Shown in pieces: positions 4,212 through 52,670 of a DNA stretch of 52,670 nucleotides. The translations under genes were made by a program, and so were the position numbers. Each line of letters opens with the position of its first letter. Within the stretch, counting starts at the first letter, position 1. Below the pieces are notes generated by a model. The model worked only from the letters and a program-made list of their open reading frames with translations, ran no database searches and was not told the DNA's origin. This DNA is from Bacillota bacterium (GTDB lineage Bacteria; Bacillota; Sulfobacillia; JACIYH01): the NCBI GenBank assembly GCA_014360055.1, contig JACIYH010000011.1, forward strand, positions 1 to 52,670, read 5' to 3'.

Positions 4212-5411
4212 TCACTCCCTCACGCCGAGGTATGTCACCGGCTCGGTGACCCGGCCCTCGTCCTTGATGCGCAGAAGGTCGCGGAACACCCCTTCGATGT
4301 CCTCCAGGGACACGTCCCGGCCGCCCAGCCCGTAGATGTAGTCCACCACCAGCGGACGCCGGGTCCGGTCATAAAGGGCGGAGCGGATGTCCCCGAAGAG
4401 CGGTCCCCCCAGGTTGGAGAGACCGTCGGCCCGGTCCATTACACCCACGACCCGGGCCGACCCCAGGGCGTCGCCGATCTCCCGCCAGGGCCAGGGCCGG
4501 AACACCCGCACCTTGAGGACACCGGCCTTGATACCCTGCCCGCGCAGCGAATCGGCCACTGCCTTGGCGCTGCCCGCCGCGGAGCCGATGGCCACCACGG
4601 CCACCTCGGCATCCTCCAGGCGGTGCGCCTCGAAGAAACCGTATTCGCGCCCGCTGAGGCGGCCGTACTCCTTCCCCACCTCCAGGATCACGGCGGGGGC
4701 ACGGCTCATGGCGTCGGCTATCTGCCGCCGGGCCTCGAAGTAGGAATCCTGCAGGGCGAGGGCACCGTAGGTCACGGGGTGTTCGGCGTCCAGGAGCGGG
4801 TAGCGCGGGGCGAACTCCCCCACGAACGAGGCCACCGCTTCGTCGGGCAGGACCTCCAGGTTCATGAGGGAGTGGCTGATCACGAATCCGTCCTGGCAGA
4901 CCATCACGGGCAGGCGGACGTCCGCGTGCTCGGCGATGCGTACGGCCTGGATGGTGTTGTCGTACGCCTCCTGGGCATTCTCGCTGTAAAGCTGGATCCA
5001 CCCGGAATCACGGGCCCCCATGGAGTCGGAGTGATCGCAGTGGATGTTGATGGGGGCGGAGAGGGCCCGGTTCACCACCGGCATCACGATGGGCAACCGG
5101 AACCCGGCCGCGATGTAGAGCATCTCCCACATGAGGGCCAGACCCTGGGAGGAGGTGGCGGTCATGGTGCGGGCCCCCGCGGCGCAGGAGCCCACGCAGG
5201 CAGACATGGCCGAATGCTCGCTCTCCACGGTGACGAACTCCGTCTTCACCTTGCCGTCGGCCACGAAGGTGGAAAAGTACTGGACGATGTCGGTCTGCGG
5301 AGTGATGGGATAGGCGGCCACCACGTCCGGGTTGATCTGCTTCATGGCCATAGCCACGGCCTCGTTGCCGGTCAGGGCCAACTTCTGCTGGGTCACTGCT
5401 TGCACGGCCAT
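4212..5411 (-). CDS. porA: 2-oxoacid:ferredoxin oxidoreductase, alpha subunit (pyruvate type)
   Basis: Alpha subunit (399 residues) with the pyrimidine-binding domain at the N-terminus (LTGNEAVAMAMKQINPDVVAAYPITPQT, quoted in two parts: LTGNEAVAMAMKQ and AAYPITPQT) and EFVTVESEHSAMSACVG, a PorA hallmark containing the TPP-activating glutamate. The C-terminal half contains domain II (AVVAIGSAAGSAKAV and VLKVRVFRPWPW). ATG at 5411; porD stops 2 bases upstream at 5413. It pairs with PorB to form the catalytic core of the oxygen-sensitive enzyme, which points to anaerobic metabolism. Confidence 0.94.
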   Translation of the reverse strand: MAVQAVTQQKLALTGNEAVAMAMKQINPDVVAAYPITPQTDIVQYFSTFVADGKVKTEFVTVESEHSAMSACVGSCAAGARTMTATSSQGLALMWEMLYIAAGFRLPIVMPVVNRALSAPINIHCDHSDSMGARDSGWIQLYSENAQEAYDNTIQAVRIAEHADVRLPVMVCQDGFVISHSLMNLEVLPDEAVASFVGEFAPRYPLLDAEHPVTYGALALQDSYFEARRQIADAMSRAPAVILEVGKEYGRLSGREYGFFEAHRLEDAEVAVVAIGSAAGSAKAVADSLRGQGIKAGVLKVRVFRPWPWREIGDALGSARVVGVMDRADGLSNLGGPLFGDIRSALYDRTRRPLVVDYIYGLGGRDVSLEDIEGVFRDLLRIKDEGRVTEPVTYLGVRE

Positions 5412-11417: not shown

Positions 11418-12710
11418 TCAGGGGGCGATGGGAGCGGCAGGTTCCATCACGGCCAGGCCGTCCATGTAGGGACGCAGCACTTCGGGGACGACCACGCTGC
11501 CGTCTTCCTGCTGGTAGTTCTCCAGGATGGCGGCCACCGTGCGCCCGACCGCCACACCCGAGCCGTTGAGGGTGTGGGCATACTCCACCCTGCCGCGCGG
11601 TCCGCGCCGGAACCTGATGTTCGCCCGCCGGGCCTGGAAGTCCTCGAAATTGGAACACGACGATATCTCTTTGTAGTCATTGTAGCCGGGCAGCCAGACC
11701 TCCAGGTCGTAGGTCTTGGCCGAAGCGAAGCTCATGTCGCCCGTGCACAGCAGGACCACCCGGTAGGGCAACCCCAGGAGTTGCAGGACCTCCTCGGCAT
11801 CGGCCACCAGCTTTTCCAGTTCGTCGTATGACTGCTCGGGCAGGGTGAACTTCACCAGTTCGACTTTGTTGAACTGGTGGACGCGGATCATGCCCCGGGT
11901 GTCGCGACCCGCCGCCCCCGCCTCGGCGCGGAAACAGGCGGTGTACGCGGTGTAGTACAGGGGAAGTTGATCGGCATCCAGGATCTCGTCGCGGTGGATA
12001 TTGGTGAGGGGCACCTCCGCAGTAGGGATGAGCCAGAGGTCCTCGCCCTCCACGTGGTACATGTCTTCCACGAACTTGGGCAGCTGGCCCGTACCCACCA
12101 TGCAGTCCCGCGTCACCAGGAAAGGCGGGAACCACTCCAGGTAGCCGTGGCGGGTGGTGTGCAGGTCCAGCATGAAGTTGATGAGGGCGCGCTCCAGCCG
12201 GGCCCCCACCCCGCGGTTGAGCACGAACCGCGACCCCGACAGCTTGGAGGCCCGCTCGAAGTCCAGCGCCCCGAGGGCGGCGCCGATGTCCCAGTGAGCA
12301 CGGGGGTCAAAGGAGAAACGCGGAGGGTCGCCCCAGCGCCGCACTTCCACGTTGGCGGAAGCGTCCGGCCCCACGGGCACGCTCTCGTGGGGGAGGTTGG
12401 GCACCAGCAGCAGCAACTCGTTCAGCCTGGCATCGATTTCCCCCAAGCGGGTGTCCAGCTCGGCGATGCGGTCCGCTACCGCCCGCATCTCTTCCACCAG
12501 AGAGGCCGCGTCCTCACCCCTCTTCTTGAGCCGCCCGATCTCCTCGGACACCCGGTTGCGCTGGGCCCGCAGGGCTTCCGCCTCGCCCAGGATGCGCCTG
12601 CGCTCTTCGTCAGCGCCCAGGATGGCGTCGATGTCAGCTTGCATGCGTTTCTTCTCCAACCCCTGCCGCACCAGTTCGGGATTGGCCCGGATGAACTTGA
12701 GGTCAAGCAT
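11418..12710 (-). CDS. serS: Seryl-tRNA synthetase
   Basis: Class II synthetase, 430 residues. The N-terminal coiled-coil arm (about 28-100, [21 protein letters not shown]) grips the long variable arm of tRNA-Ser. Motif 2 ([24 protein letters not shown]) is seen as [15 protein letters not shown], and motif 3 is [20 protein letters not shown]. The ATG at 12710 follows AGGGGGAG. It is 66 bases downstream of mtnA with no terminator between them, so the serine-type T-box at 14.0-14.36 kb probably governs both genes. Confidence 0.97.
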
Positions 12711-12776
12711 GTAGGCTCCCCCTTCTTGCCTTTCTCGGCCTTCTTGCCTTTTTCTGCAGGTCCCGCCCCGTTCGCC

Positions 12777-13934
12777 CTACACCCGTCCGCCGCCTCCCGT
12801 GCCGTTCCGTTCACCCCGCCCGGCTCCCCCGCCCATGCCGTCACCCGGGCTGGCCGGCCCCGCGCCCGCCAGGCGGGCGAGGGCCCGGTCGAGGGGCGGA
12901 TACAGCACGCCGCCATCGGTGACGATGGCGCTCACCAGACGGGCGGGCGTGACGTCAAAGGCCGGATTGCGGGCACGGGCGCCCGCGGGTGTCACCCGGC
13001 GCCCCAGCACCGCCAGCACCTCTTCCTCGTCCCGCTCCTCGATGACTATGTGCTCCCCCGATGGGAGGGTCAGGTCCAGGGTAGATCGAGGAGCAGCCAC
13101 GTAGAAGGGAACCCCGTGGTGGCGGGCGAGTACGGCCAGGCTGTACGTGCCGATCTTGTTGGCCACGTCCCCGTTGGCGGCGATGCGGTCGGCACCCACC
13201 ACCACCAGGTCGACCTCGCCGCGGGACATCAGGTACCCGGCCATGTTGTCGGTTATAACGCGATAGGGTACACCCGCCTTCTCCAGTTCCCAGGCCGTCA
13301 GCCGCGCCCCCTGCAGGAGCGGCCTGGTCTCATCGACCCACACGCTCACCCCCCGCCCCTGGCGGTGGGCGTGGATAATGGCGCCCAGGGCCGTCCCGTA
13401 TCCTGCCGTGGCCAGCGGCCCCGCATTGCAGTGGGTCATTATGCGGGCGCCGTCCGGGATCAGTTCCAGGGCGTGGCTCAAGATGCGCATGTCCATCTCC
13501 AGGTTCTCCCGGTAGATGGCCAGTGCTTCCTCCCGGGCCAGGTCGGCCATCTCCCGCGGGCCGGGGTCCGAACCCGCAGCCAGGCCGATGCGCCCCATCA
13601 CCCGGTCAACCGCCCAGGCCAGGTTCACCGCCGTGGGCCGGGCCGAGCGAAGGGCAGAAGCGGCTGCCTGCAGCCTGGTCAGGAACTCGTCCCGCCCCAG
13701 GCCCGAGAGCCGTCGAGCCTCGTGGGCCAGGGCGAACGCGGCCGCCACCCCGATGGCGGGTGCTCCCCTCACCGCCAGACTCCGAATGGCGTCCACCACC
13801 TCCGCCGCCGAGGTCAGGCGCAGGTACTTCTCCTCCCCCGGGAGGAGGCGTTGGTCCAGGATCACCACGCCCTCCTCGGTCAGGCGGACACTCTCCGTCC
13901 TCCCCAAGCCCCCGCCTTCGGTTCCCGCCTGCAT
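12777..13934 (-). CDS. mtnA: S-methyl-5-thioribose-1-phosphate isomerase
   Basis: Methionine salvage enzyme turning methylthioribose-1-P into methylthioribulose-1-P. AVRGAPAIGVAAAFALA near residue 50, MTHCNAGPLATAGYGTALG near 165 (catalytic Cys) and DLVVVGADRIAANGDVANKIG near 245 (catalytic Asp) match MtnA/eIF2B-like enzymes. The ATG at 13934 follows GGGGAAGGAGGGACAGG, giving 385 residues; the frame extends further upstream only through the T-box leader. The C-terminus has a Gly-rich tail (about 25 residues) beyond the normal end. It lies between the T-box and serS. Confidence 0.95.
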   Translation of the reverse strand: MQAGTEGGGLGRTESVRLTEEGVVILDQRLLPGEEKYLRLTSAAEVVDAIRSLAVRGAPAIGVAAAFALAHEARRLSGLGRDEFLTRLQAAASALRSARPTAVNLAWAVDRVMGRIGLAAGSDPGPREMADLAREEALAIYRENLEMDMRILSHALELIPDGARIMTHCNAGPLATAGYGTALGAIIHAHRQGRGVSVWVDETRPLLQGARLTAWELEKAGVPYRVITDNMAGYLMSRGEVDLVVVGADRIAANGDVANKIGTYSLAVLARHHGVPFYVAAPRSTLDLTLPSGEHIVIEERDEEEVLAVLGRRVTPAGARARNPAFDVTPARLVSAIVTDGGVLYPPLDRALARLAGAGPASPGDGMGGGAGRGERNGTGGGGRV

Positions 13935-14017
13935 CCTGTCCCTCCTTCCCCGCTTTGCCCGACGGGACAGCGGGCCCTTCCCACACCGGGGGCAGATCGC
14001 GGGACGCCTGCCGCCCC

Positions 14018-14057
14018 GAGAAAAGAGAGTGCCTCCCGTCACAGGGACGAGAGGCAC
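14018..14057 (-). terminator. T-box terminator hairpin
   Basis: GTGCCTC-T-CGTC pairs with GACG-G-GAGGCAC around a CCTGT loop (14029-14057), followed by TCTCTTTTCTC. It directly follows the T-box sequence, with which it should be mutually exclusive. Confidence 0.85.
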
Positions 14058-14357
14058 GGACTCCCGCGTTGCCACCCTGGTTGACCTGTCCCATCCCACG
14101 CGCGGCCGCCACGGGAACTCCCGGGCTGGCCCACGCCGGCTCGCTCCGTCGGCGGGGACGCCGGGGACGTCCCCGGGCGCAGGCCGGCGCGGTGCGGGCA
14201 GGTCCACCTCTTAGCTGTAACGGGCTGACCCGGGCCGACTCATCGCCGCCGGCTCCGGGGCGGATTCGCCGCCTGCCCCACCGGTTCGCAGCACCCACCG
14301 GCTCTCTGCGGGGGCTCGGACGCGGCTACTGCTCCCCATCCTCGCCTGCTGGCGCCG
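14018..14357 (-). promoter_or_regulatory. T-box leader (probably tRNA-Ser) controlling mtnA-serS
   Basis: Minus-strand leader of about 330 nt. The T-box sequence CCAGGGTGGCAACGCGG (14064-14080) precedes an intrinsic terminator. Stem I elements are present: AGAGAGCCGGTGGGTGCTG near 14290-14310. A loop GGCGAATCCGCC holds a candidate specifier UCC (14262-14264), a serine codon. The bulge TGGC pairs with GCCA, that is, a tRNA with discriminator G, as in both tRNA-Ser genes here. Uncharged tRNA-Ser should favour the antiterminator. The T-box call is firm; the specifier reading is inference, since I could not fold stem I computationally. Confidence 0.88.
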
Positions 14358-14386
14358 ATTTTACCACACTTGGGTTGGTCCGACAA
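14358..14386 (-). promoter_or_regulatory. Promoter of the T-box/mtnA/serS unit
   Basis: Sigma-A-type: -35 TTGTCG (14381-14386), 17-base spacer, -10 TAAAAT (14358-14363) on the minus strand, placing the transcript start at the 5' edge of the T-box leader. Confidence 0.78.
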
Positions 14387-14428
14387 CAATGACGTCGCGC
14401 CTCGCGCCCGACGCCAAGTTGGCCGGGA

Positions 14429-14725
14429 TCACCCAGCTGCACTTTTTCGCCCGAGGTCGGCGATGAGGCCACTGAGCACCGCTCCTACGGCAAGCGGAAG
14501 CAGCACCAGCCATTTACTCCCCCATGCGTCGGGCGCGCCTGCCACCCCGAAGTGCATGGGTACGGCGGGAGGCAGTACGCTCCAGTAGTACGCAGGCAGA
14601 ATCGTCATGACGAGTAGCCCCAGGACCGCTAAGCCTTCCAGGATCCCGTCCAGTCGCGTCCTCGGCAGCGTCAATACCGGTCGGTTGGCCGCCACCGCTG
14701 ATCGCCTCCATCTCGTCGCATACAT
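14429..14725 (-). CDS. DUF1648 domain membrane protein
   Basis: 98 residues from the ATG at 14725 (MYATRWRRSAVAANRP). The segment PAYYWSVLPPAVPMHFGVAG then APDAWGSK is the DUF1648 signature, found in SdpI-like immunity proteins and other small membrane proteins. Two hydrophobic segments are visible: about 28-48 and 70-90. It ends 43 bases before the serS T-box promoter and stands alone. The base composition around it looks slightly less GC-rich than its neighbours. No partner toxin is visible, so an immunity role is not supported. Confidence 0.75.
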   Translation of the reverse strand: MYATRWRRSAVAANRPVLTLPRTRLDGILEGLAVLGLLVMTILPAYYWSVLPPAVPMHFGVAGAPDAWGSKWLVLLPLAVGAVLSGLIADLGRKSAAG

Positions 14726-14775
14726 CTTAGCGCACTTATAGCCCAGCTGGGGGCCTATTGCAGGGTTGGCGGCAC

Positions 14776-14880
14776 TTGCCACACGGTGCTACGCCGACCT
14801 GCCCTGAGGCGGTGCGGCCCAGACCCTGCCGCGAGGCGGTACTGCCCCGACCGCGCCTTGAAGCAGCGTTGCAGCCCCGA
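14776..14880. repeat. Degenerate tandem repeat, about 27-base period
   Basis: Three to four decayed copies lie between rtcB and the DUF1648 gene. The clearest two are CTGCCCTGAGGCGGTGCGGC... (from about 14799) and CTGCCGCGAGGCGGTACTGC... (from about 14826), each ending in GACC. A third, weaker copy follows and a weaker one precedes. Function unknown. Confidence 0.6.
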
Positions 14881-14885
14881 TTCAA

Positions 14886-17741
14886 TCAGCCCTTGATGAC
14901 GCCGATGGGGCGCATACGCACCACCTTGCCCGCCAGGCCCGCCCGGTGCATGACCTCGACCACCCGGGAGACGTCCTTGTAGGCCTCGGGGGCCTCTTCC
15001 GCCAGGCCGGCATCGGAAGCGCCCCGCACCACGATCCCCTGCTCCAGCAGTTGCCTCTTCAGTTCCGAGCCGCGGGTACCCTTCTTGGCCTGGGCGCGGG
15101 ACATCACCCGGCCGGCACCGTGGGAGGCGCTGCCGAAGGTCTCGGCCATGGCCCCCGGGAGCCCCACCAGAACGTAGGAGGCCCGGCCCATGTCGCCGGG
15201 GACCAGCACGGGCTGGCCCACGTCCCGGTAGGCGGGAGGCAGGGCGGGATGGCCAGCGGCGAAGGCGCGGGAGGCCCCCTTGCGGTGCACGCACACCCGT
15301 GTACGCCGCCCGCCCACCTCGTGCTCCTCGAACTTGGCAATGTTGTGGGCCTGGTCATAGAGGAGCGACAGGTCCAGGTCCTCGGGCCGTTTGCGGAAGA
15401 AGCGGGCCATGGACTCCCGTACCCAGTGGGACAGGATCTGCCGGTTGGCCCAGGCGAAGTTGGCGGCCGCCGCCATGGCGGCGAAATAGTCCCTGCCCTC
15501 GCGGGAATCCAGGGGGGCACAGGCGAGCTGGCGGTCGGGCACCTTGATGTCGTATTTGGAGAGGGCCTGGTCCATCACCGCCAGGTAGTCCGTGCACACC
15601 TGGTGGCCGAGGCCGCGGGAGCCCGTGTGCACCTGCACCACCACCTGACCCTGGTACAGGCCAAAAGCGCGGGCCACCTCCTCGTCGAAGACCTCGTCCA
15701 CCACGGAAAGCTCCAGGAAGTGGTTGCCCGAGCCCAGGGTGCCCAGCTGGGGGGCACCCCGCTGCTTGGCGCGTCCGCTCACCCGGCCGGGGTCGGCCCC
15801 CGCCAGGCTGCCCCGTTCCTCGATGAAGTCGAGGTCCTCAGGGCGACCATATCCCTTCTCCACCGCCCAGGCAGCGCCCCGCACCAGCACTCCGTCGAGA
15901 TCCGCACCTTTGACGGTCAGCCGCCCCTCCGAGCCGAGCCCGGCGGGGATGTCCCGGAAGAGCTGGTCCACCAGTTCTTTGAGGCGCGGCCGCACGTCCT
16001 CCTCGCGCAGGTTGGTGCGCAGGATGCGCACCCCGCAGTTGGAAACCACGAACCCGTTGGCGATGAAGTTGTGATGGGTATCGCTCACCGTGAAGTCATA
16101 GACAGTCCCGTACCAGGGGATGGGCTCCTTGCGGATGATCTGGTCCCAAACCTGCCCAGTCATCCCCAGGCCCTCCGTCCTCTCGCGCAAGAACGAGGGG
16201 AACGAGGCCCCGGAGCGCTTGAGTTCGAGGGCGCGGGCGATGCTGTCCCGGCGATGCTCCAGCACCAGGAGTTTGAGGCGGAGGTAGTGGGCAGCCACGT
16301 TGGCAAGGTACTGCATGCGGCGGTTGTACTCGAAGCCGACCCGGGTCCACAGGGCAATGAGGTTCTCGGGCCTGCCGGAGATCTGCAGCCGGAGTCTCAC
16401 CGACACCTGCCCGTCTTTACGCACGTACTCGTCTGCCTCTTTGCGGATGGAACTGGAAACCCCGAATTCCTCGAGCAATCTCCGCAGGTCCGCCAGGTAG
16501 CGACGACCCTCTGCCAGGTGGTCGCGCACCACGCTTACGCAGAGGACAGGAGCGTCAAGGTTATACGGGTGGCCCGTGACAGCCCGCGGAGCCGTCAGTT
16601 CGGCACCGAAGAGGGAGGCCAGGAAGAGACGCTTCATCCAGAGGGGAGCCCGGTGTAACCAGCCGGGTACCGATACCCCACGGATCACCTTATCCCCGTC
16701 GGTGGCGCCCAAGCACCTCAGTAAGACCGCCAGCGCCGAGGACCCGCACTGCACCCGCGACTCCGTGCGCTCGAAGGAGACCGTGCCGTACCTGGTCTCT
16801 ATACGGTGCGAGCGGTGGCGGCCGTAAATGCGGGACGGGGCGAAACCCAGACGCCTTACGTCCTCGCGGATGCGCTCCAGGTCCTCGGGCTCCCCGTAGA
16901 ATGCCATCAGGGCGCCTCCGGACCTCAGGAAGTGCAGGGTCCCGTCGCCCTGGATGAACCCCAGAAGCTTGACCAGATAGGGCAGGCGCGGGTTGTCCAT
17001 ACGCAGGGGCAGAAGGCCCCGCTCCCGCAGGACCCTCACCACCTGCCGCAGCCCGGTGGCTGGCCCGGGGTAGGCGTCCCGCAGGTCCTCCTCGGATACC
17101 AGCACCTCGTCGGTCGGTTCTTCGTACGGTACCCCCTCGAAGGGATACACCGAGACGGCATCGCCCGCCGCCAGTTCTGCCAGGGGGACCATGCCCCGCG
17201 GGGTGAGGAAGGGATGGTCGGCGGTCGCCACTATTTCTCGCCCCGACTCAGTCGTCACCCGGTACACCGTGGCCGCGGGCGGGTACTGCTTCAGGTAGGC
17301 GGCAATGGGGGTGTCCCTCACCTCGGTGTGGGGATTCACGCAGCGGATGCGCTCCCCCGTCCAGTGCCCGTCGAACTCGGCGATGGGGCGATGATAACCG
17401 AACTCGTGCAGCACGCGCGCTTCCCCGGCCAGGCAGTTGATGTCGAAGCCTATTCCGCCGGGGGAGATCACGCCCCCCTCCAGCGAGGTGGCGGCCACCC
17501 CGCCGATGGGGAAACCGTATCCCCAGTGGATGTCGGGCATGGCCAGGGAGGCGCCCACGATGCCGGGCAGCGCGGCCACATTTGCCACCTGTTCAGGTGC
17601 CTGGTCTTCCTTGATGTCGGCGAGCATGTCCTGAGAGGCATAGATGATGCCGGGGACGCGCATGAACCCGCGGTAGGAGGTGGGTATGCGCCACCGGTAA
17701 GGATCGATGCGCTCCAGGGGACCTTCCCATCGCTTGCTCAC
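14886..17741 (-). CDS. rtcB: RNA ligase RtcB, interrupted by an intein
   Basis: RtcB joins 2',3'-cyclic phosphate RNA ends to 5'-OH ends, using GTP and Mn2+. The precursor is 951 residues; removing residues 103-568 (intein) leaves a 485-residue RtcB, the normal size. N-extein: GIVGASLAMPDIHWGYGFPI and ISPGGIGFDIN. C-extein: CGVRIL with the metal-binding Cys, LGTLGSGNHFLEL, VHTGSRGLGHQ, and SHGAGR with the histidine that becomes guanylylated (about 874 of the precursor). GTG at 17741 follows GGGAGGGG. Archease, its activator, is encoded 129 bases upstream. Splicing must occur for activity because the intein separates Asn102 from the catalytic Cys. Bacterial roles include RNA repair. Confidence 0.96.
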   Translation of the reverse strand: MSKRWEGPLERIDPYRWRIPTSYRGFMRVPGIIYASQDMLADIKEDQAPEQVANVAALPGIVGASLAMPDIHWGYGFPIGGVAATSLEGGVISPGGIGFDINCLAGEARVLHEFGYHRPIAEFDGHWTGERIRCVNPHTEVRDTPIAAYLKQYPPAATVYRVTTESGREIVATADHPFLTPRGMVPLAELAAGDAVSVYPFEGVPYEEPTDEVLVSEEDLRDAYPGPATGLRQVVRVLRERGLLPLRMDNPRLPYLVKLLGFIQGDGTLHFLRSGGALMAFYGEPEDLERIREDVRRLGFAPSRIYGRHRSHRIETRYGTVSFERTESRVQCGSSALAVLLRCLGATDGDKVIRGVSVPGWLHRAPLWMKRLFLASLFGAELTAPRAVTGHPYNLDAPVLCVSVVRDHLAEGRRYLADLRRLLEEFGVSSSIRKEADEYVRKDGQVSVRLRLQISGRPENLIALWTRVGFEYNRRMQYLANVAAHYLRLKLLVLEHRRDSIARALELKRSGASFPSFLRERTEGLGMTGQVWDQIIRKEPIPWYGTVYDFTVSDTHHNFIANGFVVSNCGVRILRTNLREEDVRPRLKELVDQLFRDIPAGLGSEGRLTVKGADLDGVLVRGAAWAVEKGYGRPEDLDFIEERGSLAGADPGRVSGRAKQRGAPQLGTLGSGNHFLELSVVDEVFDEEVARAFGLYQGQVVVQVHTGSRGLGHQVCTDYLAVMDQALSKYDIKVPDRQLACAPLDSREGRDYFAAMAAAANFAWANRQILSHWVRESMARFFRKRPEDLDLSLLYDQAHNIAKFEEHEVGGRRTRVCVHRKGASRAFAAGHPALPPAYRDVGQPVLVPGDMGRASYVLVGLPGAMAETFGSASHGAGRVMSRAQAKKGTRGSELKRQLLEQGIVVRGASDAGLAEEAPEAYKDVSRVVEVMHRAGLAGKVVRMRPIGVIKG
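16038..17435 (-). mobile_element. Intein with LAGLIDADG homing endonuclease inside rtcB
   Basis: Precursor residues 103-568 (466 aa). Block A is CLAGEARVLHEF with the nucleophilic Cys103. Block B is IVATADHPFLTPRG with TxxH (T173, H176). Dodecapeptide motifs are KLLGFIQGDG (about 258-267) and LFLASLFGAEL (about 372-382), both keeping the acidic residue (D266, E381). Block F/G is TVYDFTVSDTHHNF then IANGFVVSN, with terminal Asn568 and Cys as +1 residue. The penultimate residue is Ser567, not the usual His. The size and motifs suggest a full, possibly active homing intein. Confidence 0.93.
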
Positions 17742-17870
17742 CGCGATCCACCCCTCCCTATCCGTTGAGCTTGGCGCCTGGCTCAGGGGGTGCCTGTCAT
17801 CGGACCGCAGTCCACAGGGGTTGCCTTCCGTGATCCTGCGGTTCGCGGAGGCCGCCCGTGAGCGCGGGCC

Positions 17871-18302
17871 TCAGAGGTCGAACACCACCTGCGCGGACAG
17901 CCGCCCGCCCCTGCGGGTCACGCGGAGGCCGTGCAGGGTCGCCGCCTTCACCTCACGGCGCAGCCGATGTCGCGGACCCAGCGGTTCACCCTTCACCGCC
18001 GCCCGTACCATGAGCCCGCCGCCGGGGGCTTCCTCTACAGTAAGGCGTTCCAGTTCCCTCCAGACCACCCTACCCGTTTCGTGCTGGAAGATCAACTCGT
18101 TCAGGAAGTTGACCAGCAGGGTCTCGACGTCCCGCCCCTCCGCGGTGATCTCCCAGGTCAGTTCAGCGCGCACCTGCCGCACGTCCCAGCACACCGACCA
18201 CAGACCCACGGCGGCGGCCCGCAGGACCTCTTCCAGGTTCTCCCCGGTGACCGCCAGGGCCAGGTCCGCCGTATGCGGTACCACCCGCCACCTGCCAGCC
18301 AT
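17871..18302 (-). CDS. Archease (RtcB cofactor protein)
   Basis: 143 residues. VVPHTADLALAVTGENLEE at the N-terminus and DVETLLVNFLNELIFQHETG in the middle are archease hallmarks; the early His-Thr-Ala-Asp is metal-binding. The C-terminus has VKAATLHGLRVTR. Archease speeds RtcB guanylylation and multiple turnover. It starts 3 bases after the gyrA stop and is followed by rtcB, an unusual but logical coupling of the two partners to gyrase genes. Confidence 0.93.
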   Translation of the reverse strand: MAGRWRVVPHTADLALAVTGENLEEVLRAAAVGLWSVCWDVRQVRAELTWEITAEGRDVETLLVNFLNELIFQHETGRVVWRELERLTVEEAPGGGLMVRAAVKGEPLGPRHRLRREVKAATLHGLRVTRRGGRLSAQVVFDL

Positions 18303-18305
18303 CGC

Positions 18306-20732
<2,427 letters not shown>

Positions 20733-50133: not shown

Positions 50134-50208
50134 GCCGGTGTAGCTCAAGGGCAGAGCGGCGCATTCGTAATGCGTAGGTTGTGGGTTCGATTCCCTCCAC
50201 CGGCTCCA
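50134..50208 (+). tRNA. tRNA-Thr (CGT), likely integration site
   Basis: 75 nt with encoded CCA. Acceptor GCCGGTG/CACCGGC, discriminator T, anticodon stem-loop GCGCA-TTCGTAA-TGCGT, anticodon CGT. A tyrosine recombinase gene lies 88 bases beyond its 3' end and points toward it, the usual layout of an element integrated into a tRNA 3' end. Confidence 0.96.
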
Positions 50209-50221
50209 CGAAAAGCCAAGT

Positions 50222-50274: not shown

Positions 50275-50296
50275 TTTGGGAGCAATTTGGGAGCAA
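50275..50296. repeat. Tandem 11-base repeat at the element edge
   Basis: TTTGGGAGCAA occurs twice without a gap (50275-50285 and 50286-50296), immediately before the integrase stop. Possible arm-type integrase or excisionase binding sites near attL. Confidence 0.8.
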
Positions 50297-51481
50297 TCAA
50301 CGCGGACGGGGCAGGGGCTGTCTCCCCTGGCGGGACAGGATGCGGTCGAGGCGGGCGGCGGCCTCCTCGTCGGCGCTCCTCAACGCGGTGGCGTAGATGT
50401 TGGCCGTGGTGCGGATGTCCGCGTGGCCGAGCCGGGCGGAGACGGACTTGAGGGGCACGCCCTGGGCGATGAGGAGCGTGGCCGAGGTGTGGCGCAGGGC
50501 GTGGAACTTTATGTGGGGGAGCTCGTGGCGGCGCAGGAAGTCCGGCCACCAGCTGCTGATGGTGTCCGGGTGCATGGGTGCGCCGTCCCAAGTGCAGAAC
50601 ACGCGGTCGCTGCCCTTCCACAGATCGCCCACCCGCAGGCGATTCTGGAGTTGCGCGCCGCGGTGCTGCTTCAGGAGGGCCATCACGGAGGGAGGGACGG
50701 AGAGGGTGCGGCGGGAGCTCGCCGTCTTAGGCTCCTTCGTGAAGACTCCCCTACCCGGCACGTAGCAGGCCGCCCGTTGAACCGTGATGGTGCCCGCAGC
50801 GAAGTCCACGTCCCCCCACTCGAGGCCCAGCAATTCGCCGCGCCGCAGCCCCGTGGCCAGGGCGAGCATCACCATGGTCCGGTACTGAAGGGGCTCCCCG
50901 TCCAGGGCGGCCAGGAGCGCGGCCACCTGGGCTTCGTCGTAGGAGGGGGTCTGCTGCGGCCGGGCGCGGGGCGGCTCGACCTTTGCGAGAGGGTTCGCGG
51001 CCAGCACGCCCCACCGGACGGCGTCCGCGAACATCTTGGAAAGCACGCGGTGGTGGTAGAGAATGCTGGCCTCCGAGAGCCGACCCGCCTTGCCGTCCTT
51101 GCGGCTCCCCTCCTGCCGGAGCGCGTTGTAGAACTCCACGAAGTGCAGCGGCTTGAGCTGCTCGAGGCGATAGTGACCCATGACCTCGAAGGCACGCGCC
51201 AGCACCTGGCGGTAGCGGTGGGCGGTGCGGGGCGCCAGCCGGAGATCCACGTGGTCCCGCAGCCACCGGTCGGCGAACTGGCGCAGGGTGAGCCGGGCCG
51301 GCTGCACGTACTCGCCGCGCAAAACCTCGGCCGCGAAGAGATTGAGCAGGCGCCGCGCCTCGCGCTCGGAAGAGGCCTGGACCCGCTTGCGGTAGACTAT
51401 TCGCCTGCCCTCGCTGTCGGTCCCACCCGGGACGTTGAGGCGCCAGGTGTTCTCCCCCCGCCTTTCGACCCAACCTGCCAC
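50297..51481 (-). CDS. int: Tyrosine recombinase / phage-type integrase
   Basis: 394 residues from a GTG at 51481 (VAGWVERRGENTWRLN) after AGGAGGAGG. N-terminal AP2-like DNA-binding region (about 1-60), SAM-like core-binding domain (about 65-150) and catalytic domain with TGLRRGELLGLEW (Arg), KFHALRHTSATLL (HxxR), LGHADIRTTANIYA (His and Tyr). The C-terminus points toward tRNA-Thr. Such proteins integrate phages, ICEs and related elements. Confidence 0.95.
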   Translation of the reverse strand: MAGWVERRGENTWRLNVPGGTDSEGRRIVYRKRVQASSEREARRLLNLFAAEVLRGEYVQPARLTLRQFADRWLRDHVDLRLAPRTAHRYRQVLARAFEVMGHYRLEQLKPLHFVEFYNALRQEGSRKDGKAGRLSEASILYHHRVLSKMFADAVRWGVLAANPLAKVEPPRARPQQTPSYDEAQVAALLAALDGEPLQYRTMVMLALATGLRRGELLGLEWGDVDFAAGTITVQRAACYVPGRGVFTKEPKTASSRRTLSVPPSVMALLKQHRGAQLQNRLRVGDLWKGSDRVFCTWDGAPMHPDTISSWWPDFLRRHELPHIKFHALRHTSATLLIAQGVPLKSVSARLGHADIRTTANIYATALRSADEEAAARLDRILSRQGRQPLPRPR

Positions 51482-51482
51482 C

Positions 51483-52430
51483 CTACGCCTCCTCCTTGAT
51501 CCAGCCTGCCACCGTAGCCTCATCCGAGCCCAGAGCTTCGGCGATTTCCGTGACGGTCTTTCCGGCCGCGTACATCTCCTGGGCCTGTACCTTACGCCTT
51601 CTGTAGGCCTTGGTGCGGCAGGCGTTGCTGCAATAGATGCGGTTGGTCCTGGCGGCCTCGGGCGACACTTCGAACCAGGTTCCGCACTCTTCGCAGCGAC
51701 GGTAAGCCTTCCGGCCGGTTATGGCGCGCGCGAACTGGAGCCAAAGCGCCCCGATCAGGCTTTGCGGAAAGACATGGAGACCCAAGTTGCTGCCGTGTTC
51801 GTCCCATCCGAGCACAGGGGAAAGCTGCCCCCTAAGGTGCTCATTCACCACTCTCTGAAGCCGATAGAGCGCCGGCATTACCAGATCACCACGAGCAAAA
51901 CGCTTAAGGCGCTCGGGGTGGATGTTGGGGGCTGCGATCCACTCCGTGTAGCGGGGTTCACCGGAGTCTCCTGTGAGGTGGGTGTCGTACAGGATGCCCG
52001 TCCCCCCAGGGCCCTCGGTCCAGGTTAGCCTGCGGCCGAGTGCCGCAACATCTCGTGCCTGAACGGCGTCCCAGAGTTCGACCGCCAGCCGCATGTCCCA
52101 TATCTGCTGCTGCCAAAAGGACAGGGGTTCCGCGGCAGCACGCGCCTGCCGGCCCTTATAGTCAACAGGGACAACATACTGCATTTCACACAGATGGCCG
52201 TATTTGTTCGCGAAGTGAAGTATGCCCTCCTTGGTTGGTGGCGTATCGGCAAATGTGCGGAAGAGACCGGTAAACATGTGCAGTGGTAAATAGGCTCTGT
52301 AGGTCGCTATGTCTTCCGGCTCGCTTGTGGCCAGATAGTCTTCTTCTACGCCGGTGTGCTCGTCCTTTGCACGGACCCACCGGAAGCCATGCGTAGGAAC
52401 GATCCAAAAGAAGGAGAAGAATTCGGCCAC
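51483..52430 (-). CDS. Hypothetical protein with C-terminal zinc ribbon and HTH-like tail
   Basis: 315 residues, GTG at 52430. The N-terminal half (SFFWIVPTHGFRWVRAKDEH; FRTFADTPPTKEGILHFANKYG) is unfamiliar; ILHFANKYG recurs in some uncharacterised mobile-element proteins I recall only loosely. The C-terminal 90 residues contain CEECGTWFE...YCSNACRTKAYRRRK (C-x2-C...C-x3-C, CGNR-like zinc ribbon) and then a helix-turn-helix-like segment AAGKTVTEIAEALGSDEATV. The stop is one base before the integrase start, so it is the upstream partner in a two-gene operon. Likely DNA- or RNA-binding, perhaps a regulator of the element. No named family is assigned. Confidence 0.6.
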   Translation of the reverse strand: MAEFFSFFWIVPTHGFRWVRAKDEHTGVEEDYLATSEPEDIATYRAYLPLHMFTGLFRTFADTPPTKEGILHFANKYGHLCEMQYVVPVDYKGRQARAAAEPLSFWQQQIWDMRLAVELWDAVQARDVAALGRRLTWTEGPGGTGILYDTHLTGDSGEPRYTEWIAAPNIHPERLKRFARGDLVMPALYRLQRVVNEHLRGQLSPVLGWDEHGSNLGLHVFPQSLIGALWLQFARAITGRKAYRRCEECGTWFEVSPEAARTNRIYCSNACRTKAYRRRKVQAQEMYAAGKTVTEIAEALGSDEATVAGWIKEEA

Positions 52431-52464
52431 CTACTCACCCCTCGCCCGGGTTCTTGTTACGCTT

Positions 52465-52511
52465 ATTATACGTGGTGACGTGTTGACAGGCAAGAACTCA
52501 GCGCCTATAAT
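52465..52511. promoter_or_regulatory. Overlapping divergent promoters of the integrative element
   Basis: Plus: -35 TTGACA (52483-52488), 17 bases, -10 TATAAT (52506-52511), toward the excisionase-like gene. Minus: -35 TTGCCT (52488-52493), 17 bases, -10 TATAAT (52465-52470), toward the unknown protein and integrase. The -35 boxes touch at 52488, so one polymerase would exclude the other. Confidence 0.85.
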
Positions 52512-52545
52512 ACTCGGTGACGGAAAGCGGAAAATGTCACGTCAC
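52475..52545. repeat. Inverted repeats flanking the divergent promoters (operator candidates)
   Basis: GTGACGTG (52475-52482) is the reverse complement of CACGTCAC (52538-52545); GTGACG recurs near 52517. They bracket the plus promoter and look like binding sites for a repressor. Confidence 0.65.
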
Positions 52546-52559
52546 GGAGGATAGCAAAC

Positions 52560-52670
52560 GTGAAAGAATGCCTTCGTGCACAGGAGGCCGCCGAGATTCT
52601 GAACCTCTCGCCCTGGACGGTGTATCGCCTTGCCAGGGAGGGGCGAGTTCCGCACGTCCGAATTGGCGGC
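52560..52670 (+). CDS. Excisionase-type helix-turn-helix protein (partial)
   Basis: Only the first 37 residues are in the window. GTG at 52560 follows CACGGAGG. CLRAQEAAEILNLSPWTVYR and LAREGRVPHVRIGG match the MerR-like excisionase/Xis DNA-binding domain (consensus: eAAelLgvs..TvyrlareGklPa.riG). Its strong consensus promoter opposes the integrase operon. Confidence 0.85.
   Translation, partial: MKECLRAQEAAEILNLSPWTVYRLAREGRVPHVRIGG

Follow-up and report, generated by a model that had tools for sequence, protein, structure and literature searches.

A remote ABATE-CGNR zinc-finger protein encoded directly upstream of the integrase of a tRNA-Thr-integrated element is a candidate maintenance repressor

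The lysogeny module of temperate phages has a characteristic gene order, with int followed by the gene for a DNA-binding protein, the repressor, and with cro or xis and then a primase gene in divergent orientation. The locus described here has the same order as these modules in temperate phages and PICI-like islands but, as known here from gene layout, an ABATE-CGNR-like protein occupies the place of the repressor rather than an XRE-type CI or Stl. To our knowledge, PDB 3H0N is the only solved structure of an ABATE protein. It represents Jann_2411, which contains a CQNR and not a CGNR tetrad, and the accompanying paper proposes that the protein is a stress-linked, dimeric DNA-binding transcription regulator with ligand sensing (PMC2954205). 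Longer proteins with a C-terminal CGNR finger, Tn6164 Orf6 and Phi1207.3 orf15 (∼384–398 aa), are found in mobile elements (PMC3485107, PMC4260502); their neighbours there are LlaJI restriction genes rather than an integrase, and their likeness to the family described here consists of length and finger. Our search for literature on CGNR proteins with integrases, which covered few subscription papers and is no proof of novelty, returned only the Tn6164 and Phi1207.3 papers and no report of the pairing. No paper on the function of a further related domain, DUF6076 (PF19553), was found in the literature search.

The window analysed is a 52,670-nucleotide stretch from a Bacillota bacterium (Sulfobacillia; JACIYH01) which constitutes a whole contig and ends inside a divergent HTH_17 gene. 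The 3' end of its tRNA-Thr gene (47 bp) has one further exact copy in the same genome, on contig C69, where no tRNA gene is present. In the congener G002 (C11, L039), the right flank of the C69 copy recurs behind an intact tRNA-Thr (97%, 76 bp), constituting an empty site. The 47-bp repeat and the empty site thus identify the window as the left end of an integrated tyrosine-integrase element at a tRNA 3' end, with int beside att and exact direct repeats. The element is seen from its two ends on separate contigs; joining the contig end to C69 by overlap was rejected, as the end sequence has no second copy in the genome. A 20-bp stretch containing GGGAGCAATTTGGGAGCAA, a candidate Int arm site, is located near both element ends (far-end match G000:C69:1349-1368) and again next to att in a related element of congener G001. 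A PDC-S11 phage-defence candidate (PADLOC E 1.6e-101; L022, G000:C69 219-1043, minus strand) resides inside the element, ∼440 bp from attR. In G001, locus L040 (G001:C23:12500-32000) contains near-identical tRNA-Thr 3' cores at 4885-4931 and 17052-17097, separated by ∼12 kb. One core adjoins a related integrase gene that lacks a neighbouring zinc-protein gene; this is a different element occupying the same target. The contigs of both congeners end at the tRNA-Thr locus.

Table 1. Positions of the features in the window, followed by the complete elements detected in relatives.
Feature	Position	Strand	Size	Basis or remark
tRNA-Thr (CGT), intact; chromosomal target, attL side	50134..50208	+		ARAGORN; Rfam RF00005 66.6 bits
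att core, 3' 47 bp of tRNA-Thr gene	50163..50209	.	47 bp	Exact copy at G000:C69:1483-1529
Direct-repeat stretch TGGGAGCAATTTGGGAGCAA, putative Int arm site	50277..50296	.		20-bp exact matches elsewhere
Tyrosine integrase, from GTG 51481	50297..51481	-	394 aa	Phage_integrase E 9.7e-28, SAM_3 E 4.5e-7, PHROG integrase E 1e-80
ABATE-CGNR-like zinc-finger/HTH protein	51483..52430	-	315 aa
C-terminal helix-turn-helix, res 277-312	51495..51602	-		HTH_23 E 2e-5; model; IstA HTH match
CGNR-like treble-clef finger, C246/C249/C267/C271	51618..51695	-		hhalign vs ABATE-CGNR; zf-CGNR in relative L004
Predicted second alpha-beta-hairpin-alpha unit, ABATE-like, res 184-238	51717..51881	-		AF2 and profile alignments
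Predicted first alpha/beta-hairpin unit, res 103-149	51984..52124	-		AF2; putative ABATE assignment
Two 21-nt direct repeats (52460-52480, 52502-52522; 81%), candidate operators	52460..52522	.		Cover both -10 boxes
Sigma-70-type promoter TTGCCT-17-TATAAT, zinc-protein/int operon	52465..52493	-		Sequence, shuffles
Divergent perfect-consensus promoter TTGACA-17-TATAAT, xis side	52483..52511	+		Sequence, shuffles
HTH_17 excisionase/AlpA-type gene, start only	52560..52670	+		HTH_17 E 1.3e-9, 38.6 bits vs cut-off 27
Complete element L085, tRNA-Trp	11475-18989 of G466:C2		7.5 kb
Complete element L096, tRNA-Arg			9.9 kb
Complete element L090, tRNA-Trp			10 kb
Complete element L089, tRNA-Arg			13 kb
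Complete element L087, tRNA-Val			16 kb

The integrase gene reads toward tRNA-Thr (CGT) and, as the first-pass annotation had claimed, the gene for the zinc-finger/HTH protein (hereafter the zinc protein) is located directly upstream. The integrase open reading frame opens at ATG 51523, equivalent to a 41 bp overlap with the zinc-protein gene. GTG 51481, positioned a single base past the zinc-protein TAG stop (TAG-G-GTG) with GGAGGAGG 8 nt upstream, appears from the sequence to be the more likely start, a correction to the earlier reading of the pair. Adjacency of this start codon to the zinc-protein stop suggests that the two genes are probably translationally coupled. The zinc-protein frame comprises 315 codons beginning at GTG 52430, directly behind an in-frame stop and accompanied by a GGGGTG ribosome-binding-like stretch, and its N-terminal motif [V/I]P.HGF.W aligns with relatives, making this start credible. 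The gene is single copy in its own genome, and GC content falls from 67–70% to 60% across the gene and its promoter region.

The zinc ribbon and helix-turn-helix tail described previously are present in the 315-residue product, the finger being of Cys4 type with the spacing C246-x2-C249...C267-x3-C271. The same annotation stated that the N-terminal 220 residues match nothing, which is correct for direct Pfam hits: matches are confined to HTH types at the C-terminal tail (HTH_23, just above cut-off, and Terminase_5), with none at the Pfam cut-off for residues 1-220. The zf-CGNR model (PF11706) is below its curated cut-off on the window protein and unlisted even at E<=10, ABATE (PF07336) at the Pfam curated score matches neither the window protein nor its relatives, with 0 matches across the genome, and DUF6076, which covers the same region as the window protein (pre-finger helix plus finger), matches the finger at a sub-threshold 17.5 vs 23.5 bits. 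In relative L004, zf-CGNR scores 29.1 bits, above the cut-off of 24, with matches under cut-off in L005 and L013.

Comparison at the profile and fold level overturned the notion of an orphan N-terminus. A 19-member family profile aligned with nine classical ABATE-CGNR proteins over the finger and preceding helix (hhalign 96.4%, E 1.3e-9), and with a narrower family profile (A3) the alignment to the ABATE profile extended across the second ABATE unit, with a reduced probability of 54.7%. A nine-member family profile matched PDB 3h0n (E 0.0012, 98 residues including the finger) and, in reverse, the ABATE profile matched L012 (1.1e-11), L053 (2.9e-10) and L019 (3.1e-8). The AlphaFold2 model, built from a four-sequence input (pLDDT 64.7, pTM 0.60), predicts two alpha-beta-hairpin units, a treble clef and an HTH. 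The treble clef consists of two knuckle cysteines (C246/C249) and two helix-start cysteines (C267/C271) with a modelled beta-hairpin and helix 269-288. Confidence is highest in the HTH (pLDDT at least 90 for residues 281-310), which superimposes on the IstA HTH with an rmsd of 0.5 A over 34 residues, and varies in the first unit, with pLDDT of ∼83–86 in the helix and ∼42–67 in the hairpin. The best Foldseek match in the PDB is 3h0n for both the window and L019 models, at modest E values of 0.016 and 0.046 and with low whole-chain TM-scores; confidence in both models is moderate (pLDDT 65 and 60). Two tandem alpha-beta-hairpin-alpha units are predicted in the secondary structure of the AlphaFold2 model, a tentative likeness to the ABATE fold, and the second is also aligned by sequence profile. 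Combined, these results identify the window protein as a remote ABATE-CGNR (DUF1470) homologue, firmly for the finger, probably for the second unit and plausibly for the first, the N-terminal match depending on the modelled fold topology and the second unit.

As in classical ABATE-CGNR proteins (PF07336 plus PF11706), the window protein has a C-terminal treble clef of the same ligand layout following a predicted alpha-beta-hairpin-alpha unit. It differs from them in that CRTK replaces the CGNR tetrad, an HTH tail is added and PF07336 is not reached; members of its family are 244–433 aa in length vs ∼180–220 aa, and several are Cys2HisCys. A finger sub-branch (L002, L018, L043, L045 and L046) carries His in place of the third Cys (CxxC...HxxC). 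The C-terminal HTH is missing from many relatives. Homologues of the window protein or its near relatives were not found among phage, plasmid or IMG/VR sequences, and DUF6076-type relatives gave only two weak phage matches and one weak plasmid match. A DUF6076-like hypothetical protein is encoded in a tailed phage (L106, Ruminococcus phage NatCom_38182, 3335-4384), near genes for a nucleoside 2-deoxyribosyltransferase and a DNA helicase.

Only G78, L225, C246 and C249 are invariant across 19 family members, with no conserved catalytic pattern. This bears on the idea that the zinc protein is itself a nuclease or recombinase, which weak PHROG (E 1.5e-6) and Pfam similarity of its finger to those of HNH endonucleases and NinG and the att-proximal position of some loci without a neighbouring int might suggest. 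The HNH and NinG similarity is, however, confined to the Cys finger, a catalytic His or other invariant polar residues are absent, and the complete elements described below each encode their own tyrosine integrase, making this role very improbable; a nuclease identity via the finger was rejected.

Relatives were present in 34 of the 398 genomes of the phylum survey, and 33 non-redundant family loci were counted; the survey was seeded from this zinc-protein family and hence is not a random sample. A tyrosine integrase is encoded downstream on the same strand at 12 of the 33 loci, at 1.5 kb in L019 and adjacent or within ∼300 nt in the others, and is adjacent on the opposite strand at two more. 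In 7/10 coupled pairs (L003 and L019 left out), the int start closest to the zinc-gene stop is found at -4 to +4 nt from it, and 14/33 loci terminate at a tRNA gene or a fragment of one, with int intervening in some (the fragment in L017 was judged by eye). The family is thus associated with mobile elements beside int or tRNA, in contrast to classical ABATE control loci (L067, L070-L078), in which neither a downstream int (0/10) nor an adjacent tRNA (0/10) was observed. DUF6076 loci L098 and L101 have an integrase directly downstream, L101 also being beside tRNA-Val, which suggests that PF19553 probably belongs to the same integrase-coupled superfamily. Coupling to an integrase, proposed originally for the single gene, is consequently a conserved family property. 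A class search around G201 detected no additional int-coupled members. In L018 (5752-7235) and L017 (4160-5695), the zinc gene stops ∼100–140 nt from a tRNA gene or fragment with no integrase between, and Prim-Pol or D5-type replication genes are divergent to it.

The association is not universal, as the zinc gene is apart from int in L087 and L089, indicating that coupling to Int is not obligatory. This observation is relevant to a role restricted to int, in which the zinc protein would activate or autoregulate, raising or limiting int expression once the element has entered a new host while leaving the divergent operon unrepressed. The shared operon and divergent promoter region are compatible with such a role; against it, the zinc gene is kept at loci that place int in a separate operon (L087, L089) or on the other strand (L049, L096), and we regard this role as improbable.

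Five complete elements (7.5–16 kb), recognised by direct repeats, are bounded by exact 45–53 bp tRNA 3' repeats, and each contains a tyrosine integrase (L085, L087, L089, L090, L096). The zinc gene adjoins attL or attR in four, only int intervening between it and the tRNA in L090, and it is transcribed toward its att end in all five. Among the cargo are restriction-modification genes, a relaxase gene and replication genes, and one element also encodes a tape-measure-like protein. The order in L085 is tRNA-Trp, integrase, Cro-like genes, DnaG-like primase/AAA_25, zinc protein and 53-bp attR; this element is a good minimal experimental model.

The att-proximal location, maintained even with int elsewhere (L085, L087, L089, L096), might reflect a recombination accessory factor, an architectural or directionality protein that binds attP or arm sites and aids Int, hence its coupling to int near att. 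Tight start-stop coupling and a finger of DNA-binding type are in keeping with this, and the excised circle of L085 would read znf - attP - int. On the other hand, a separate divergent HTH_17 excisionase-type gene is present in the window and in several relatives, and this tRNA-Thr core is also the target of a related integrase in G001 (L040) that has no zinc gene beside it, so that integrases of this type can apparently function in the absence of the zinc protein. The 315-aa window protein also has no excisionase-type (short HTH_17/AlpA/Xis) Pfam match. An accessory function is thus unlikely, although it ranks second after the repressor reading given below and ahead of an int-only activator and of defence; also unlikely is the recombination-directionality factor suggested by the first-pass annotation, given the short excisionase-type gene divergent beside the zinc gene here and in relatives.

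Two divergent sigma-70-like promoters with overlapping -35 boxes are present in the 52431-52559 intergenic region, compared with 0.1 ± 0.3 in shuffled sequences. GTGACG repeats in this region are not significant by count alone, as some 6-mer was as frequent in 157/2000 shuffles (p ∼0.08). Across the family, divergent neighbours are HTH_17/AlpA (8 ORFs) or Cro-type HTH_3/HTH_31 (7–9 ORFs) genes, then primases. This arrangement, int and zinc protein with divergent cro/xis and primase, is the order of a lysogeny module and leads us to read the zinc protein as a maintenance repressor. Most likely, the zinc protein governs when the element remains integrated and when it exits the chromosome. More specifically, we assign a probability of about 0.5 to its being the maintenance repressor and autoregulator of the element, a DNA-binding protein of the ABATE-CGNR type within the integration and regulation module of small tRNA-targeting elements, a role suggested by its position and domain type. 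We infer that the zinc protein and Int would be made in step from one transcript, with the finger, plus the HTH where present, most likely binding the divergent promoters that lie between the operon of the zinc protein and int and that of xis (or of cro-like genes followed by primase). Binding would keep xis and replication off and set the level of both the zinc protein and Int, and the ABATE part may serve in dimerisation or ligand sensing and so relieve repression. A new regulator, one of three roles guessed at initially, is accordingly the best supported, from the CGNR treble clef and HTH, the divergent promoters and the Xis/Cro-type neighbours, with repression itself still presumptive.

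A defence factor, the remaining guess, gains no direct support, as PADLOC-DB 2.0 defence models gave no match to the window protein. As defence or superinfection-exclusion cargo, the zinc protein would have company in the PDC-S11 gene near attR of the same element, the restriction-modification genes of complete elements and the LlaJI genes adjoining long CGNR proteins in Tn6164 and Phi1207.3 (PMC3485107, PMC4260502). Against this, seven relatives yielded a single marginal PADLOC match (E 0.008), conserved catalytic residues are absent, and the gene occupies a fixed site in the int/xis/primase module, in an operon with int, rather than a cargo position. A defence function is therefore quite improbable.

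The maintenance repressor reading extends, somewhat more tentatively, to a possible unrecognised class of mobile-element master regulator, in which ABATE-CGNR-fold zinc-finger proteins would replace XRE-type CI/Stl in small tRNA-integrated elements of this phylum (Bacillota-type), translationally coupled to the integrase and with the ABATE domain sensing a signal that leads to excision. The zinc gene is a terminal marker beside tRNA-borne att sites and hence a handle for finding such elements, and since these carry restriction and defence genes, their control bears on the movement of defence islands. A structure for ABATE-CGNR proteins has been available since 2009, with no demonstrated function in the literature searched; a divergent branch fixed in an integration module offers a testable job for the fold, the control of integration, excision and replication.
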